Shown here: in pieces, positions 20,021 through 28,333 of the stretch
Numbering within the stretch: position 1 is the stretch's first letter
Layout: every line of letters begins with the position of its first letter
Origin: Paenibacillus durus ATCC 35681
GTDB lineage: Bacteria; Bacillota; Bacilli; Paenibacillales; Paenibacillaceae
NCBI RefSeq assembly: GCF_000993825.1
Contig: NZ_CP011114.1
Span: forward strand, 4,712,001 to 4,776,000
DNA: 64,000 nt
Direction of reading: 5' to 3'
Notes under the pieces: model-generated
Databases searched by the model: none
What the model was told of the DNA's origin: nothing
What the model saw: only the letters and a program-made list of their open reading frames with translations
Made by a program: the position numbers and the translations under genes

Positions 20021-21976
20021 TTACTCTCTATCATTCCTCTCCTTTTCTTTGATGATCATTACACCTTCCACATGTTTGCGCCGCATTAAATTCCGTTTCT
20101 TCCGGTCTTCTTTCGTCTCCAGCACAATATCCAGATCATAATTTTCCGGGTATAGCTCATCTTTGGATAGATACGGCTTCAAGCGTTTATGATTAATCTG
20201 CAGTTTATGCTTTTGGACCATGACGCCTACCATGCCTCTTGCATTCCGTTTCTCATATACGATTCCCGTTCGGCCAAGCGAACTGACATAGACTGCGTCG
20301 CCGACTTCAAAAGAATGCGGCTGTACCTGGCGATCCTTATGTCCTTCCTCTGCATGCTGCCGCTTGCTTTCTGCCATTTCTGCCGCTTCTTTCTCTTCTT
20401 CCCTTCCTTCATGGTCATACCACAGCCGCATTTCTTGTTCGCCCAGCTGTCCGCGGCTCTGACCGCCGGCAATTTGACGCGAGCGTTCAATAACTCTGGC
20501 GTCGATCCCGAGCTTCTCGGCAATTTGCAGCGCATAGCTGTGCCCCGCTTCCCCTATTGTCAGCTTATATAGCGGGCGGAGCGTAGACGGGTCAAATTCC
20601 ATTCGCGCATTTTGGAACTGCGGGGCGGCCGAGGCAAACACTTTTAACTCATTAAAATGTGTTGTGACAATGATATTGGCACCTTTGCGGCTCAGCTCCT
20701 CCAAAATGGCGATCGACAGAGCGATGCCCTCCCCCGGGTCGGTGCCCGCCGCCAGCTCATCGATTAGCAGTAAAATATTCGGTCCTGCGGCGCGCAGCAT
20801 CTCGTCTACCCCCTTCATCTGGGCGGAGAACGTACTGAGGGACTGCGTCAGGCTTTGCCCGTCTCCAATTACACTCATTACATCGGCAAAAACGGGAAGT
20901 CGGCTCTCTTTATCCGCCGGAATCAAGAGCCCCGACTGAGCCATCAGCACAAGCAGCCCCACCGTCTTCAGCACAACCGTCTTTCCGCCCGTATTCGGGC
21001 CGGTGATTACCAGCGACCGATATCCCTTGCCGAATTCAACATGGATCGGAACCATACCGGCAAGCATCGGATGTCTGGCTCCGCAGAGCCGCAGATCCCC
21101 CCGGTCATTGAAGGTTACAGCTTCGCCCCCTATCACAGCAGCATATTTCGCCTTAGCAAAAATAAAATCATACACCCCCGTAATTTCGATATTCAGCCGC
21201 AGGGCATCCTGCTCCCGTTCGATCAGCCCGGTCAGCATGCTCAAAATGATGCCCTCCTCCCGCGCTTCTTCAGCCGACAGCATTTCCAGTTCCCCTTGCA
21301 GAGCCGCTACTTCCTCCGGTTCCACATACACCGTCTGCCCGCTTGTGGACTGATCGAGCACTGAGCCCTTCACCTGCTTATGGTACTCACGCTTGACCGG
21401 GATCACGTAACGGCCTCCCCGCTGACTGTACAGATTTTCCTGCAAAATGGATTGGTGGCGCGACATGACGCTCTCAATTTTCTTGAGCAGCCGTTCTTTG
21501 GTTACTCTCAGCCGTTTGCGCACCTTCTCCAGCCCCTTGCTGGCTCCGTCGTCAATTACGCCGAACCGGATACAGCGTTCGATCTCCGCTTTGACCGTCT
21601 TTAGTTCCGCCAATGAGGATGCATAAGCGCCGATCCGCGGCGCTGTTTCTTTGGAAGCCATATACTTGCGCAGCTGGCTGCAGCTGTTCAAGAATACGCC
21701 CACAGACGTAAAATCCTGCTCATTGAACAGATATCCCGTTCCCAGAAGCGATATCACCCATTCAATCCCTTCTAGCGAGGGGATCGGCACACTCGACCCT
21801 CTTATTACTAATTCCTTCGCCTCCGCTGTTTCTTCCACCGCTCTGTGGATCGCCGTAAGCTCAGTCATTGGCGCAAGCTCTGCAATGAGCGCTTTTCCGA
21901 CATAGGAGACGGCATACCGTCCCAGTTCCTCCTTGATCAAATGATATTCGAGCGTTTGCCGGCTTTGTAAATGCAT
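20021..21976 (-). CDS. MutS2-family ATPase lacking the C-terminal Smr domain
   Basis: 651 residues from ATG 21976 (AGGAGG eight bases upstream). It has the MutS core without mismatch-recognition domain I: lever/clamp region (about 1-290), then the ABC-type ATPase with Walker A GPNTGGKT (326-333), Q-loop and signature region STFSAQMKG (381-389), Walker B LLIDELAAGTDP (about 403-414) and switch His in TTHFNELK. After a coiled, charged stretch (510-555) comes a KOW-like domain (about 557-602). Bacterial MutS2 is about 780 residues and ends in an Smr nuclease domain; here the chain stops soon after the KOW-like region. B. subtilis MutS2 has been reported to act on collided ribosomes; this one might act on ribosomes or DNA without cleavage. 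Preceded by an attenuator-like leader. Confidence 0.88.
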   Translation of the reverse strand: MHLQSRQTLEYHLIKEELGRYAVSYVGKALIAELAPMTELTAIHRAVEETAEAKELVIRGSSVPIPSLEGIEWVISLLGTGYLFNEQDFTSVGVFLNSCSQLRKYMASKETAPRIGAYASSLAELKTVKAEIERCIRFGVIDDGASKGLEKVRKRLRVTKERLLKKIESVMSRHQSILQENLYSQRGGRYVIPVKREYHKQVKGSVLDQSTSGQTVYVEPEEVAALQGELEMLSAEEAREEGIILSMLTGLIEREQDALRLNIEITGVYDFIFAKAKYAAVIGGEAVTFNDRGDLRLCGARHPMLAGMVPIHVEFGKGYRSLVITGPNTGGKTVVLKTVGLLVLMAQSGLLIPADKESRLPVFADVMSVIGDGQSLTQSLSTFSAQMKGVDEMLRAAGPNILLLIDELAAGTDPGEGIALSIAILEELSRKGANIIVTTHFNELKVFASAAPQFQNARMEFDPSTLRPLYKLTIGEAGHSYALQIAEKLGIDARVIERSRQIAGGQSRGQLGEQEMRLWYDHEGREEEKEAAEMAESKRQHAEEGHKDRQVQPHSFEVGDAVYVSSLGRTGIVYEKRNARGMVGVMVQKHKLQINHKRLKPYLSKDELYPENYDLDIVLETKEDRKKRNLMRRKHVEGVMIIKEKERNDRE

Positions 21977-22032
21977 GTTTTTTTCCTCCTTTTTTGGGTA
22001 TCGTTCATCGTTCTGGAATTCGTCCTTAACGC

Positions 22033-22072
22033 AAAAAAGGGCAAAGAATGCCGCAGCGGCATTCTTTGCCCT
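22033..22072 (-). terminator. Intrinsic terminator inside the MutS2-like leader
   Basis: Minus strand: 17-base perfect arms (left AGGGCAAAGAATGCCGC, right its exact complement) around one central base, followed at once by TTTTTT. It is upstream of the gene's ribosome-binding site (about 57 bases before ATG 21976), so it would block the gene unless overcome. Confidence 0.88.
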
Positions 22073-22097
22073 AATCCTTACACTGCTCCCTTGTCCT

Positions 22098-22128
22098 GGG
22101 CATGGGGCTAAGGATAGCTCCATGCCCC
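22098..22128 (-). other. Stem-loop in the MutS2-like leader
   Basis: Arms of about 13-14 bases (plus strand GGGCATGGGGCTA and TAGCTCCATGCCC) with one internal mismatch and a four-base loop. No T tract follows, so it is not a terminator in itself. Confidence 0.6.
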
Positions 22129-22132
22129 AAAT

Positions 22133-22175
22133 ACACGAACAAAACCGTGCTGCAAGAGCACGGTTTTGTTCGTGT
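22133..22175 (-). other. Perfect 19-bp hairpin in the MutS2-like leader
   Basis: Left arm 22133-22151 and right arm 22157-22175 are exact complements, loop five bases (GCAAG on the plus strand). On the minus strand the arm is followed by ATTTG rather than a T run. It may insulate leader folds or be a processing site. Confidence 0.7.
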
Positions 22176-22366
22176 AGACGGGATAACAGCCGTAAAGAGG
22201 CTATTGACGCGTCGCGTGTTCTTAACTAAATCATTCACCATAGGCTATAAGGGCACAGCCATGCCAGAAACACGTGTTAACATGCGTTTCGGACACGCTC
22301 AAATAAGCGTGCGTTTCAGCGGCTAAATAACAGCCGCCGTTCTGCCTTCAGGTGATATGAAATTGC

Positions 22367-22390
22367 TTAGTTAAGAACGCTCACCGACAT
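22367..22390 (-). CDS. Leader peptide MSVSVLN upstream of the MutS2-like gene
   Basis: Seven codons plus TAA, ATG at 22390, with AAGGGG about eight bases upstream, starting roughly 25-30 nt after the predicted transcription start. The last three codons and the stop (Val-Leu-Asn-stop) are the strand that pairs with 22229-22218 downstream, so ribosome position would decide which RNA structure forms. Short leaders of this sort control erm, cfr-like and ARE ABC-F genes in Firmicutes. The peptide itself I do not recognise. Too short for codon statistics; the support is ribosome-binding site plus pairing. Confidence 0.6.
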   Translation of the reverse strand: MSVSVLN

Positions 22391-22421
22391 CAAAATTTCC
22401 CCTTCGTTATAGGATGGTTTA

Positions 22422-22450
22422 AATTTACTACATTTGGCTGGCCGCGTCAA
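22422..22450 (-). promoter_or_regulatory. SigA-type promoter of the MutS2-like leader
   Basis: Minus strand TTGACG (22450-22445), 17-base spacer, TAAATT (22427-22422). It starts about 49 bases after the rpsR terminator, so the unit is independent of the ribosomal operon. Confidence 0.65.
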
Positions 22451-24453: not shown

Positions 24454-24472
24454 GTGATTAACTGATAGGTAA

Positions 24473-24563
24473 TGGCGGAGAAGGTGGGATTCGAACCCAC
24501 GCACGCTTTGACACGCCTAGCTGATTTCGAGTCAGCCCCCTTGGGCCTCTTGGGTACCTCTCC
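24473..24563 (-). tRNA. tRNA-Ser, anticodon CGA (copy 1)
   Basis: 91 nt class II tRNA read on the minus strand: acceptor GGAGAGG with CTTCTCC, long variable arm, anticodon stem GCTGA/TCAGC with loop CTCGAAA (anticodon CGA, reads UCG), T arm GTGGGTTCGAATCCCAC and encoded CCA. Differs from copy 2 at four positions. Both flank the four-gene two-component/ABC module. Confidence 0.95.
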
Positions 24564-24623
24564 ATTGCCGCAGAAACACACAGGTAATATCTTACCATAA
24601 ATCAGTTTCTTCCGGCAAGTGAT

Positions 24624-25313
24624 TTAAGCGACATCGTCCCGTTCTACCCTGCGAATGGACAGATAAGCGATAGCTATTCCAAGCAGGCCCAGGGATACCG
24701 AGACAAGCGCCAGATCTCCCAAGCGGAATTTACCGAAGCCGGATGAGATAAGCGTGACAATCAGCACCGCGCTGACTATGGTCGCCGGCACCGATTTTTT
24801 GCGCATTCCCACATACAAGGGGATCAGACCTATACCCGCTGCGTATACAGCACTCGCTCCGGTCTTAATCAACTCCGAAATGAGCAGGTTAGCGGTGATT
24901 TCCTCCGAAATGGCGCTCACGAAACTGTTAACGCCCACTATGATCGCCCCGAGCACGATATTTGACACCACAATATTAAGGAAAGTGAACAGCAGCACGA
25001 TGATGAGCTTCGCATACATCAGCTTCATCCGTGAAATGGGATACGTAAACAGCAGGGCCATCGTATTGTTCTTATACTCGTCAATAATCAACCTGCTGAG
25101 CAGAACGGAAGCAAAGATGATGAATGTACCGCTTATAAAGATATGCAGCCCTTCAAAAGCCTCCGGATAGGTTGCAAATTCACTTTGGTCAATGAAGACG
25201 ACTAGTATCATGAAGGCGAGGATGGCCAGATTGGCGATGAGTACACCTTTCAGCATTCCAGCCAGCTTATGCTTGCGAATTTCCAGAGAAATAAGCTTAC
25301 GCAATGCCCTCAC
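24624..25313 (-). CDS. ABC transporter permease (YcbO-like)
   Basis: 229 residues with six predicted membrane spans and no extracytoplasmic domain, the ABC-2 type permease layout found in lantibiotic/bacitracin-type immunity exporters. GTG 25313 overlaps the ATPase gene by 17 bases, so the two are coupled. With the kinase and regulator upstream the order matches B. subtilis ycbL-ycbM-ycbN-ycbO, whose substrate is not settled. Probably exports or detoxifies a membrane-active compound (inference). Confidence 0.85.
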   Translation of the reverse strand: MRALRKLISLEIRKHKLAGMLKGVLIANLAILAFMILVVFIDQSEFATYPEAFEGLHIFISGTFIIFASVLLSRLIIDEYKNNTMALLFTYPISRMKLMYAKLIIVLLFTFLNIVVSNIVLGAIIVGVNSFVSAISEEITANLLISELIKTGASAVYAAGIGLIPLYVGMRKKSVPATIVSAVLIVTLISSGFGKFRLGDLALVSVSLGLLGIAIAYLSIRRVERDDVA

Positions 25314-26217
25314 CCCCGATCAGGCTTAAGAAATGATCTTCCAGTGAGTGTTTATTTTTGCTGATACTTTCTATTTCCACATCCTCCATCACCAGCGCCT
25401 TATTCAGTTCATGCTGCGAAACTCCTTCATCGTAAATCCGGATGATGCCGGAATCCATCACTTTAAAATTCGACAGATGCAGTTTGTGCTCCAGCACATA
25501 AACCGCTTTACTGACCGAACGGGTGACCAGCTCAATATACTCCGTATTTCGGCTGAGAATGGAGTCCATCGCCATCTCCTCAAGCAGTACGCCCTCGCGA
25601 ATAACGCCGATCGTATCGGCAATCTGTTCAATTTCGCCAAGGATGTGGCTGGAGATTAGCAAGGTCATTCCATATTCCCGGCTGAGCATCCGAAACACAT
25701 CGCGCAGTTCCTTAATGCCGACCGGGTCCAGACCGTTAATCGGCTCATCCAGGATAAGCAGCTCGGGTTTCGTCATTACCGCTCTAGCAATGCCCAGACG
25801 CTGCTTCATGCCAAGAGAGAACTCCTTCACCGGCTTCTTATCTACTCCCGTAAGTTTTACCAGCTCCATAACATCGTCAATCGCCTGGCGGTTGTAATAG
25901 CCCATATATTCACCATGCAGCAGCAGATTTTCACGGGCAGTCAGTTTATCGTAAAAAACGGGGTACTCGATAATGCTGCCCATTCGTTTTAGCATCTCAT
26001 AGGAACGGCTGGTCATACGTTCACCGAAAAATTCGATTTCGCCTTCCGTCGGCTTTACGAGGTTTGTAATCATCTTCATCACGGTCGTTTTGCCCGCGCC
26101 GTTCGGTCCCAGAAAGCCGTAGATTTCACCCTGCCTAATTGTCATGTTTACGCTGCTTACGCTATGTTTCCCCTTGTACATTTTGCTTAAATTTCGCGTC
26201 CGAAGAATTACCGTCAC
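25297..26217 (-). CDS. ABC transporter ATP-binding protein (YcbN-like)
   Basis: 306 residues: full ATPase domain with Walker A GPNGAGKTT (about 36-44), signature FSLGMKQRLGIARA, Walker B LLILDEPINGLDP and switch His in SSHIL, plus a C-terminal extension (about 220-306). Same length and order as YcbN (307). GTG 26217, after GGGGG. It pairs with the YcbO-like permease. Confidence 0.92.
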   Translation of the reverse strand: MTVILRTRNLSKMYKGKHSVSSVNMTIRQGEIYGFLGPNGAGKTTVMKMITNLVKPTEGEIEFFGERMTSRSYEMLKRMGSIIEYPVFYDKLTARENLLLHGEYMGYYNRQAIDDVMELVKLTGVDKKPVKEFSLGMKQRLGIARAVMTKPELLILDEPINGLDPVGIKELRDVFRMLSREYGMTLLISSHILGEIEQIADTIGVIREGVLLEEMAMDSILSRNTEYIELVTRSVSKAVYVLEHKLHLSNFKVMDSGIIRIYDEGVSQHELNKALVMEDVEIESISKNKHSLEDHFLSLIGGEGIA

Positions 26218-26297
26218 TTCCGCTGCCCCCTTTGGATTTCTCTTTCTGTTCCTGGTTTTTATTGTATAGAGCGGAATTTTCTTTTTTATTAATGTAA

Positions 26298-26313
26298 TCT
26301 TACGAAATTCTTA
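26298..26313 (-). promoter_or_regulatory. Candidate response-regulator direct repeat upstream of the ABC genes
   Basis: Minus strand TAAGA occurs twice with 11-base periodicity (26313-26309 and 26302-26298), one helical turn apart as expected for OmpR-family dimers, in the 144-base gap between the kinase stop and the ATPase start. A TACAAT lies downstream near 26266-26262. Inference from spacing only. Confidence 0.35.
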
Positions 26314-26361
26314 AGAAGCGACTCCAGACAGGACCGACATCTCCTGACCGCCACGGCCGAT

Positions 26362-27297
26362 TCACAGATTTATCCTCGGAAAAACGACCGTAAAAGCCGT
26401 CCTCACATAAGGCTTGCTCACGAGCGAAATCTTACCGTTCATCTGCTCCGTTAATCTTTTAGTGATCGTCAGTCCAAGACCGCTTCCCTGATAGACCCGG
26501 TTCCGTGAATCCTCCAGCGTATAAAGGCGCTCGAACACTTTATCCTGATGGCCCTCGGTAATCCCCTTTCCCCGGTCCCAAATTTCAATACTCACGGTGT
26601 CCGTATCATGATTAAGCTTCAGCCCAAGCACCCCTCCGGCGGCTCCGTACCTGATCGCATTGGACAGCAGATTGGACAGAATCCGGTCCAGCGCCTCATT
26701 ATTCCCCCGGATGTAGCAAGCTTCATCTGGAATCTCAATCGATACATCAATACCTTTGCCGCTTAGGATATCGTAAAAGGCCAAAATATTCCTGCGGCAC
26801 ACTTCGCCGGCCTCTACCCTTGACAGTGAAAGCTGATGATCGCCCGATTCGAGCTTGGCCAAGTCAAAAAAGGTGTTCATCTGCGTGATTACCTCCCCAG
26901 CCTTCCAGTGGATCATTCTCAGCATTCGCTCCCGTTCTTCGGCGTCCATATCTGCGTCCTGCAGCAGTGTTTCAATATACCCGAGAACGACGGTCAGCGG
27001 CGTCTTCAGGTCATGCGACACATTCGCCAGCATCTGGCGCATGGATTTCTGCAGTTTATTTCTCCGGGCGATGCCTTCATGGTTGAGATCCAGCAGCCGG
27101 TTCACATCTGTCAGCAGCGTTTGCAGTTCGGGCGAGCTGCTGAACACCAGCAATCGTTCCTGTGAATGCTGTGAAATGATCTGGTCCAGTTTATCGTGGA
27201 TATACTTCAACTGGCGCGAATGATGACGCGACCTCCGGTACTGCATCACAAGACCCAACAGAAGCAGACCGATCACAGCTCCAAGCACCGCAGTCAT
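26362..27297 (-). CDS. Sensor histidine kinase (YcbM-like)
   Basis: 311 residues, the same length as YcbM: one short N-terminal membrane span (about 4-20) with almost no extracellular part, then a coiled linker, HisKA with SHDLKTPLT (His about 96), HATPase_c with N box SNLLSNAIRY, DRGKGI and GSGLGLTI. ATG 27297 overlaps the regulator stop in ATGA. Such intramembrane-sensing kinases usually detect through their partner ABC transporter. Confidence 0.93.
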   Translation of the reverse strand: MTAVLGAVIGLLLLGLVMQYRRSRHHSRQLKYIHDKLDQIISQHSQERLLVFSSSPELQTLLTDVNRLLDLNHEGIARRNKLQKSMRQMLANVSHDLKTPLTVVLGYIETLLQDADMDAEERERMLRMIHWKAGEVITQMNTFFDLAKLESGDHQLSLSRVEAGEVCRRNILAFYDILSGKGIDVSIEIPDEACYIRGNNEALDRILSNLLSNAIRYGAAGGVLGLKLNHDTDTVSIEIWDRGKGITEGHQDKVFERLYTLEDSRNRVYQGSGLGLTITKRLTEQMNGKISLVSKPYVRTAFTVVFPRINL

Positions 27298-28016
27298 TGC
27301 ACCGTATCTCCCAGCTTATACCCGATGCCCCATAAGGTTTTGATATATTCAGGGTGGGAGGGATCGTCTTCAATCTTCTCCCGCAGCCTTCTCATATGTA
27401 CGTTAATCACATTCTCGTCTCCGTAATACTCTTCCGCCCATACCATCCCATAAATCTGCGCCTTGGTGAACACCCGGCCCGGATGGGTCATAAACAGCTT
27501 CAGGATTTGAAATTCCTTGGCCGTCAGCTTCACCTCTTCCCCATTTTTCAGCGCCGAGAAATTATCAAAATCCACCGTCAGCCCGCGCAAGGTAATGCTA
27601 TGCTTCGGATTGGCTGTCCCTTCGGACGGGCCGCGGCTTGAGGCATATTCCGCCCGGCGGATTGCCGCCTTCACCCTCGCCGCAAGCTCAATCATCGAGA
27701 ATGGCTTACTGATATAATCATCCGCTCCAAATCCGAGTCCGAGCGCTTTATCGACATCGGTATCTTTTGCGGACACAATCATCACGGGTACCAAACTTGA
27801 TTTACGAATGCTTTGAAGAACATCCACGCCGCTGCGATTCGGCAGCATTTGGTCCAGCAGAACAAGGTCAAAGGGACCTCTATCGCGAAAAGCTTGCTCC
27901 GCCGCCTCTCCGTCGAAGGCGCTCTCGACCTGGTAACCCTCTTTCACTAAATACGAGCGAACCATCTCACTGATGGCTTCGTCATCCTCGACCAACAATA
28001 CACGATGCTGCAACAA
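27294..28016 (-). CDS. OmpR-family response regulator (YcbL-like)
   Basis: 240 residues: receiver with acidic EDDE (about 10-13), phosphoacceptor Asp in LVLLDQMLP (about 54) and SKPFS lysine, then a winged-helix domain ending in YIKTLWGIGYKL. TTG 28016 is preceded by GGGAGGG. First gene of the four-gene module; likely controls the ABC genes. Confidence 0.93.
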   Translation of the reverse strand: MLQHRVLLVEDDEAISEMVRSYLVKEGYQVESAFDGEAAEQAFRDRGPFDLVLLDQMLPNRSGVDVLQSIRKSSLVPVMIVSAKDTDVDKALGLGFGADDYISKPFSMIELAARVKAAIRRAEYASSRGPSEGTANPKHSITLRGLTVDFDNFSALKNGEEVKLTAKEFQILKLFMTHPGRVFTKAQIYGMVWAEEYYGDENVINVHMRRLREKIEDDPSHPEYIKTLWGIGYKLGDTVQ

Positions 28017-28178
28017 GATTCCCTCCCGCAGTAAATTCCTCGGCCGGCTGACAGGTTATAATAGCCCGACTCATACCCAGCCTTACCAAAAAAGTTTCTT
28101 TCAGCATATTCGTTTACATAGTATAAACTTACCAGAATTATTAGGGTACGGGAGATCCACAACTTATAAATTTATGAC

Positions 28179-28211
28179 AAAAAAACCTCCCGCCTAACAA
28201 GGCAGAAGGTT
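28179..28211 (-). terminator. Terminator after tRNA-Ser copy 2
   Basis: Minus strand AACCTTCTGCC and GGCGGGAGGTT with G-T pairs, loop six bases, then TTTTTTTG; 31 bases past the tRNA 3' end and upstream of the response regulator. Confidence 0.8.
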
Positions 28212-28242
28212 AATTTCATCTCGTTTATTAACTTGGCTTTAG

Positions 28243-28333
28243 TGGCGGAGAGAGTGGGATTCGAACCCACGCACGCTTTGACACGCCTAACTGATTTCGA
28301 GTCAGCCCCCTTGGACCTCTTGGGTACCTCTCC
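28243..28333 (-). tRNA. tRNA-Ser, anticodon CGA (copy 2)
   Basis: 91 nt with encoded CCA, same fold and anticodon CGA as copy 1 at 24473-24563; the four differences are one in the D arm, one in the anticodon stem (C-G to a wobble pair) and two in the acceptor 3' strand, all keeping the structure. It lies 43 bases after the DUF951 stop and could be cotranscribed with it. Confidence 0.95.

Follow-up and report, generated by a model that had tools for sequence, protein, structure and literature searches.

A conserved seven-codon leader and candidate ribosome-sensing attenuator upstream of an Smr-less MutS2 paralogue in Paenibacillus

The window considered here, a 64,000-nucleotide stretch of the Paenibacillus durus ATCC 35681 genome, contains on its minus strand a leader situated between rpsR and a MutS-like gene (mutS2L) with its ATG at 21976, the group rpsF-ssb-rpsR lying directly upstream. 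The elements of this leader, evaluated below as a candidate ribosome-sensing transcription attenuator, comprise a promoter, a short open reading frame (ORF) immediately preceded by an in-frame TTG, two complementary segments (arm1 and arm2) and two terminators (T1 and T2), and are collected in Table 1 together with those of mutS2L. The folding energy of the leader transcript was far lower than that of shuffled sequences (z = −12.1; 0/100 shuffles as low), and no Rfam family matched the leader above gathering score, the window's matches being confined to rRNA and tRNA. Because single promoter and terminator matches occurred in the region only at chance level (six promoters found, 6.1 expected; six terminators found, 5.8 expected), it is conservation that decides their relevance.

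Table 1. Elements of the leader and of mutS2L in the window
Feature	Position	Strand	Basis
SigA-type promoter TTGACG-17-TAAATT	22422–22450	−	pattern match and conservation in relatives
Shine-Dalgarno AAGGGG of leader ORF	22399–22404	−	sequence; Shine-Dalgarno-like run in 29/29 readable protein-fetched loci (required by the script)
Leader ORF MSVSVLN-stop (ATG TCG GTG AGC GTT CTT AAC TAA), 7 codons from ATG	22367–22390	−	conservation in 29/29
arm1 GTTCTTAACTAA, codons 5–7 plus stop	22367–22378	−	comparison, RNAalifold
AATTTCATA, conserved motif right behind leader stop	22356–22364	−	alignment A2
arm2 TTAGTTAAGAAC, complement of arm1; predicted anti-antiterminator helix	22218–22229	−	comparison, RNAalifold
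AAGAACACG, arm2 half of predicted antiterminator; partner CGTGCTCTT at 22154–22162, one mismatch	22215–22223	−	L001, −9.3 kcal/mol
Post-arm2 segment; predicted to pair back toward leader start in the OFF fold, alternatively to assist the antiterminator	22199–22217	−	folding, duplex energies
T1 terminator, AACCGTGCTCTTGCAGCACGGTT hairpin plus U-rich tail	22137–22165	−	conserved attenuator in comparison
T2 intrinsic terminator, second and stronger	22033–22072	−	terminator scoring
mutS2L, 651 amino acids, Smr-less MutS2 paralogue; stop codon 20021–20023	20024–21976	−	profile and structural comparison
mutS2L KOW domain, residues 558–603	20168–20305	−	hhalign, predicted structure
mutS2L family-specific C-terminal tail, residues 605–640	20057–20164	−	alignments, profile comparison

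With the protein as the only bait, all 40 relatives searched gave a match (a count that includes canonical MutS2 and MutS1), and the best 30 were taken as loci L001–L030; since the upstream region of L012 is masked by Ns, 29 of these were readable. In each of the 29 a seven-codon ORF, read from ATG, was followed by a 3' complement of its last 12 nucleotides (nt) with 0–2 mismatches, the distance from arm1 to arm2 ranging from 87 to 151 nt. An earlier note on this DNA had described a SigA promoter, the leader MSVSVLN with its ribosome-binding site and a perfect 12-base complement to the end of that leader, all of which proved to be present in the window, and had proposed a search of relatives for leader and paired segment, both of which were found to be kept. 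The consensus is MxxxVLN-stop, with the end VLN in 28 of the 29 peptides and ILN in one (L025); most of these loci also have an in-frame TTG directly before the ATG, which the script printed as the start. The stop codons were TAA in 21 loci, TAG in five (L004–L007 and L011) and TGA in three (L018, L019 and L029), the arm2 of the latter compensating with TCAG. Specificity for one stop codon or release factor was ruled out, all three stop codons having been found.

Scanning named genomes with a pattern for the ORF, arm2 not included, gave at least 120 loci, to which the counts for this pattern refer; the hosts of the 80 listed were mostly Paenibacillus, together with Brevibacillus, Fontibacillus, Saccharibacillus, Longirhabdus, Neobacillus, Lentibacillus and two metagenome-assembled genomes. 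An arm2 bearing no more than one mismatch was present in 116/120, and a SigA-like promoter (9/12 or better) preceded the leader in 111/114 as against 2/114 control windows, six loci with too little upstream sequence being omitted. No run of codons for a single regulating amino acid, of the kind seen in trp-type attenuators, was conserved in the 120 peptides, and viral contigs contained no match when searched with the exact pattern of the ORF. When the paired arms were read on the reverse strand, peptides such as MISAVLN, MISVVLN and MLSAVLN appeared; these were set aside as antisense of the same leader. A two-arm pattern, which required no start codon, was found in 162 of the 392 genomes searched in the order and in four of 398 in the phylum (three from the window's own family), and its reversed-pattern control gave zero among the matches listed. 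The loci fetched by this means again had an ORF of seven codons when read from ATG, TTG or GTG, several having been scored from codon 3 only because the script chose whichever start lay closest to the stop. A codon-degenerate pattern applied to 119 genomes produced 60 matches in 58 genomes, 59 of which read as leaders; the match in G066 (C1:4884716) was judged to be chance. In 58 of these 59 leaders arm1 was GTTCTTAAC, the exception being GTTTTTAAC in G126, and conservation extends to the nucleotide level, wobble bases included. Changes in arm1 that break or weaken the pairing are few: GTC for Val in L005 and L006, ATT (Ile) in L025 and TTT (Phe) in G126. A separate observation concerns the AATTTCATA motif (variant AATTCCATA) after the leader stop, which is nearly invariant and for which no explanatory pairing was found.

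Gene and arm2 both lay in range in 161 of the 175 leaders collected, and T1 stood at 45–75 nt in 135 of these; the latter were thinned to 40, and the 38 non-redundant leaders that remained after L089 and L094 (long loops) had been left out formed alignment A2. RNAalifold predicted from A2 the arm1:arm2 helix and T1, and nothing further. Counts made on this named structure found 93.0% of cells paired as against 28–41% with slid partners, and two-sided changes in 23 cells as against 7.6 in shuffles, although such counts lean toward a structure that came from the same alignment. T1 (CCGTGCT...AGCACGG followed by a U tract) starts 45–75 nt (median 60) past arm2 in 135/161 leaders and occurs before both of the genes found behind the leader, mutS2L and bpsA. 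Two terminators were scored in 113/161 leaders, while L258 and L259 have only one visible. On these sequence comparisons T1, some 60 nt past arm2, is the conserved attenuator. The earlier note had counted this hairpin among several stems but missed that role, and had assigned the switch to T2; the latter terminator is indeed present, but it is T1 that arm2 can antiterminate, no partner for T2 having been found.

In the 40 leaders the 5' arm and loop of T1 have their complement in arm2 and the bases that follow it. The mean duplex energy of arm2 with its own T1 was −11.95 kcal/mol, compared with −10.90 for permuted partners and −7.9 for shuffled ones, and 0/5000 permutations were as low, in a test uncorrected for relatedness to which clade-wide differences between leader types contribute. 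The register is ACGGAU:AUCCGU in some leaders and AAGAACACG:CGUGCUCUU, with one mismatch, in the window; the divergent L030 has an antiterminator of ten pairs with an altered T1. When unfinished RNA, cut at the T1 loop, was folded with the ORF either free or occupied by a ribosome at the stop, the mean arm2:T1 pairing rose from 0.56 to 10.56 base pairs (bp), with a gain of more than 2 bp in 38/40 leaders; shuffling arm2 gave 5.16 bp and a T1 arm from another species 8.63 bp. At the window locus the same fold model gave 0.0 bp for AAGAACACG/CGTGCTCTT with the ORF free and 6.6 bp with the ribosome at the stop. The NusG-type pause motif TTNTTT was weakly enriched (24/40 leaders, 14.6 expected). 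The comparison shows the leader ORF, arm1, arm2, T1 and the predicted alternative helix, which joins arm2 to T1 (5' arm and loop), to be conserved or co-varying, and an RNA switch is well supported by it. Set beside attenuators of the hflXr, vmlR and ermK type, ermK being one with a short ORF, the leader has a short ORF with a ribosome-binding site 3' of the promoter, and this ORF overlaps the anti-antiterminator arm; an antiterminator mutually exclusive with T1 emerged from comparison and from the folding of unfinished RNA, whereas equilibrium folding showed none and none was found for T2.

The assignment of the downstream gene, in the earlier note, to an Smr-less paralogue of MutS2 stood. 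The ATPase motifs of mutS2L are intact (Walker A 326–333, Walker B around 402–407), MutS_V was the only Pfam domain, the Smr domain was absent by both Pfam and alignments, and TIGR01069 matched over positions 5–515 of 790 (best stretch). The KOW domain matched that of canonical MutS2 (hhalign 90.6%, E 1.3e-6, 33 columns) and was predicted to fold as five strands with a predicted local distance difference test score (pLDDT) of about 92, and the position of Smr is occupied by the tail LYPxxYDxDIxFESKENRKKRxLMxRKHVEG. Structural alignment with 7qv3 gave 36% identity. The family forms a clade separate from canonical MutS2, and the genome of the window also encodes a full-length MutS2. The tree comprised 44 members, thinned from 111 of full length; alignment A1 comprised 38 sequences, A3 28 of 32 prepared and A4 15 of 16 prepared. 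Judged as a canonical MutS2, the protein has the MutS2-type core, ATPase and KOW and lacks the C-terminal Smr; judged as an antibiotic-resistance (ARE) ABC-F protein, it does not have the two ABC-F ATPase domains, by Pfam. From this domain make-up, and by analogy, we infer that MutS2L probably splits stalled ribosomes.

The gene behind the 120 ORF-pattern loci was the MutS2 paralogue in 107 and a member of the BpsA family in six (L048, L050, L063, L064, L091 and L129), the other seven ending early with less than 500 nt of downstream sequence. Further fetched loci again had mutS2L or bpsA as the leader gene, with exceptions in G180, G071 and G039. One leader is followed by mutS2L and then directly by bpsA in L216 (G088), L226 (G112) and L225 (G130), whereas Paenibacillus sp. 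DMB20, Paenibacillus sp. USDA918EY and P. flagellatus have two leaders, one per gene. The leader-linked second gene matches BpsA_C (PF01861) with 153 bits; against solved structures it scored 85 bits with 5xnc and slightly more, 88.5 bits, with 2qm3, a 'predicted methyltransferase'. A second BpsA subgroup of the same order (L221, L222, L227 and L228; 48–52% identity) has no leader. As regards the exceptions, neither mutS2L nor bpsA was found downstream of the leader in the fetched stretch of L160/L185/L250 (G180), and L250 has a TTG start and a T1-like hairpin. In L153 (G039) leader and mutS2L stand some 2.1 kb apart, and the spacer, which contains a reverse-transcriptase ORF that by eye is of group II intron type, is suggestive of an insertion. 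L224 (G071), in which a leader ORF without recognisable arm2 precedes a short mutS2L remnant and then an intact-looking bpsA, is a decaying copy.

Taken together, these data make it probable that the dedicated MutS2 paralogue is under the control of a transcription attenuator that senses ribosomes; the protein would then be an inducible factor for rescue or resistance, the MutS2 counterpart of HflXr. In the normal state a ribosome would complete the seven-codon ORF and depart, allowing arm1 and arm2 to pair, T1 to fold and transcription to end. A stall on the ORF, caused by a translation inhibitor or comparable insult and possibly located at VLN-stop, would cover arm1; the freed arm2 would then capture the emerging 5' arm and loop of T1, T1 would fail and the gene would be transcribed. 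Its product, a MutS2 with KOW and an intact ATPase and no Smr, would split stalled ribosomes in the manner of B. subtilis MutS2. Stalling as input and antitermination as response are the natural reading of the arrangement; on that reading the system would be an attenuator that senses stalls, new both in its arrest-like leader and in its effector, and with a second target that was not expected.

A number of results weigh against this proposal. In complete RNA at equilibrium T1 stays formed, with a mean probability of 0.974 when the ORF is free and 0.944 when it is covered (0.955 when it is covered and the arm2 region shuffled), and in 1/40 leaders the value drops by more than 0.2. It was because this equilibrium test showed no loss of T1 that RNA ending at the T1 loop was tested. 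As T1 persists in either state of the ORF, any antitermination would need to act kinetically, which is usual for attenuators. Placing a ribosome on any one of codons 1–7 frees arm2 in 37–39/40 leaders according to the fold model, and no specific stall site is therefore singled out. In the window leader the modelled antiterminator passes 6 bp only once the ribosome has reached codon 4. Selection on the amino acids VLN is not cleanly separable from RNA pairing. The antiterminator of the window (−9.3 kcal/mol) is weaker than most. A lack of covariation, which the earlier note had named as counting against it, did not occur, but 9/12 arm1:arm2 pairs are invariant and argue neither way, and the compensated pair lies in the stop codon. 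For T2 no antiterminator partner was detected in the 3' half of T1 plus spacer, the 3' arm of T1 or arm2, permutations being as low or lower in 1994, 1606 and 1887 of 2000 cases, respectively. The most distant family member, L238 (G025), lacks this leader; at 2419–2745 it has a different upstream ORF of nine codons (MSVAGFQQV) in a long hairpin with a paired arm and a terminator adjoining the gene, a like design with another leader.

The alternatives differ in what the leader is taken to sense. That it might be a general sensor of translation speed, in which any slowing (amino-acid shortage, guanosine tetraphosphate (ppGpp), many inhibitors) leads to readthrough and the peptide matters only through RNA pairing, overlaps the explanation preferred here and is a possibility of some substance, if one that we doubt: the conservation of arm1 down to its wobble bases and the freeing of arm2 by a ribosome at any codon are what it would lead one to expect, whereas an ORF of constantly seven codons, pairing-breaking changes that are silent or mild for the peptide (those in L005, L006, L025 and G126) and the want of a conserved run of one regulatory codon are not. 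A metabolite sensor, in which the ribosome is halted at VLN-stop by a polyamine, decarboxylated S-adenosylmethionine (dcSAM) or a compound of that kind, with BpsA as the primary target and MutS2L clearing the stalled ribosomes, is unlikely. MAGDIS and SpeFL are leaders on which such a compound stalls the ribosome, and the fixed length and end of the ORF, the presence of the same leader before BpsA-family genes (the six loci above and more in other fetches) and the placing of bpsA directly behind mutS2L under a single leader in three loci would fit; however, PF01861 is rarer than the leader among 119 genomes of the order (above cut-off in 17, or 33 with weak matches, against a leader match in 58), it has no match in the genome of the window, some BpsA-family genes have no leader, and control by a product would be expected to repress rather than to induce.

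Other readings concern the gene or the hairpins themselves. Family names and annotations (endonuclease MutS2, DNA mismatch repair protein MutS) recommend MutS2L as an ATPase of DNA recombination or repair, its attenuator answering some other stress, but this too is improbable given that the Smr nuclease domain is absent, MutS_V being the sole Pfam domain, that KOW is retained, that its nearest relative among solved structures comes from collided ribosomes and that control is exerted through a leader ORF. The position of the window leader just 3' of rpsF-ssb-rpsR might indicate that the hairpins are mere terminators of the rpsR operon and the ORF incidental; rpsR lies upstream in just 24/103 mutS2L loci with enough sequence, by which its linkage as a general feature was ruled out, and leader, promoter and arms accompany mutS2L or bpsA elsewhere, plasmids included, leaving this idea with a practically negligible chance. 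Plasmid records matching the mutS2L protein numbered 55, and the two copies inspected, from Paenibacillus sp. IHB B 3084 and Cytobacillus spongiae, both have the leader. The stall-sensing attenuator could, in a more far-reaching and distinctly tentative version, govern a two-gene ribosome-stress regulon: one arrest peptide, MxxxVLN, and its switch would stand before two unrelated genes, a resistance-dedicated MutS2 that splits stalled ribosomes without using Smr to recognise collisions, and a BpsA-type enzyme whose branched polyamines (or aminopropyl modification) protect ribosomes from the same agent, with the peptide representing a new arrest class that acts where a very short ORF ends.

Elsewhere in the window, 24457–28333 contains a pair of direct repeats of 107 nt, 90% alike, each with a tRNA-Ser(CGA) gene (tRNAs 87/91 identical). 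These flank an ABC transporter, with a best match of lantibiotic-protection type below cut-off, and a two-component system that is VanRS/YycF-like, likewise below cut-offs; the whole looks like an inserted or duplicated module.

Leader and switch are kept in many Paenibacillus, a genus rich in antibiotic producers, and in some relatives, and represent a candidate on-demand response to drugs or insults that jam translation. As a natural Smr deletion under an apparent stall-sensing switch, MutS2L allows the need of collision recognition for splitting to be asked. Were induction by drugs to prove true, the system would provide an unrecognised route of intrinsic resistance or tolerance and a new arrest peptide, together with what would be, as far as the literature was searched, the first known case outside thermophiles in which translation stress is linked to an enzyme of the BpsA family.

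In the literature searched, mostly without subscription journals and without bioRxiv preprints, nothing describing this system was found under the leader, MutS2 with attenuation or splitting, or MutS2 in Paenibacillus; the passages available of PMC13410324, which treats context-specific inhibitors, do not mention MutS2. Like canonical B. subtilis MutS2 (PDB 7qv3, 8qpp, 8r55), MutS2L has the MutS-type core, ATPase and KOW, but it differs in its conserved family tail in place of Smr, its separate clade and its leader switch. The leader-linked second gene has BpsA_C in common with BpsA, the N4-bis(aminopropyl)spermidine synthase (PF01861; PDB 5xnc, 6j26), and differs by an extra cysteine-rich C-terminal stretch, its product being a prediction; its hosts are Bacillota of moderate temperatures. 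Branched polyamines have been connected with ribosome stability in thermophiles, according to the passages available of PMC12979288. B. subtilis MutS2 splits stalled ribosomes, the splitting of collided ones by MutS2 being a recent report, and its deletion causes hypersensitivity to chloramphenicol, tetracycline and erythromycin; a Walker B mutant is erythromycin-sensitive and KOW and SMR mutants very modestly so, the share of work among Smr, KOW and ATPase being unsettled in the parts of that paper available (PMC10897456).

Among attenuators, the vmlR leader of B. subtilis also has a very short ORF (MIN) within an anti-antiterminator, a stall on which permits the antiterminator to form, and the NusG pause motif TTNTTT weakly enriched here is reported for it; it differs in its ABC-F target, its three-codon ORF, the single terminator hairpin described in the passages available and the additional sequestration of the vmlR Shine-Dalgarno sequence (PMC9226507). 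Also close in design is hflXr (lmo0762)/rli80 of Listeria, likewise a stress-kept paralogue of a ribosome-splitting factor behind an attenuator composed of short ORF, anti-antiterminator, antiterminator and terminator. There, however, the effector is an HflX homologue and the ORF encodes 14 amino acids with an RLR motif, with no BpsA-family partner in the passages available (PMC6310831), whereas here a MutS-type ATPase follows the seven-residue MxxxVLN and a BpsA-family gene forms the second target.
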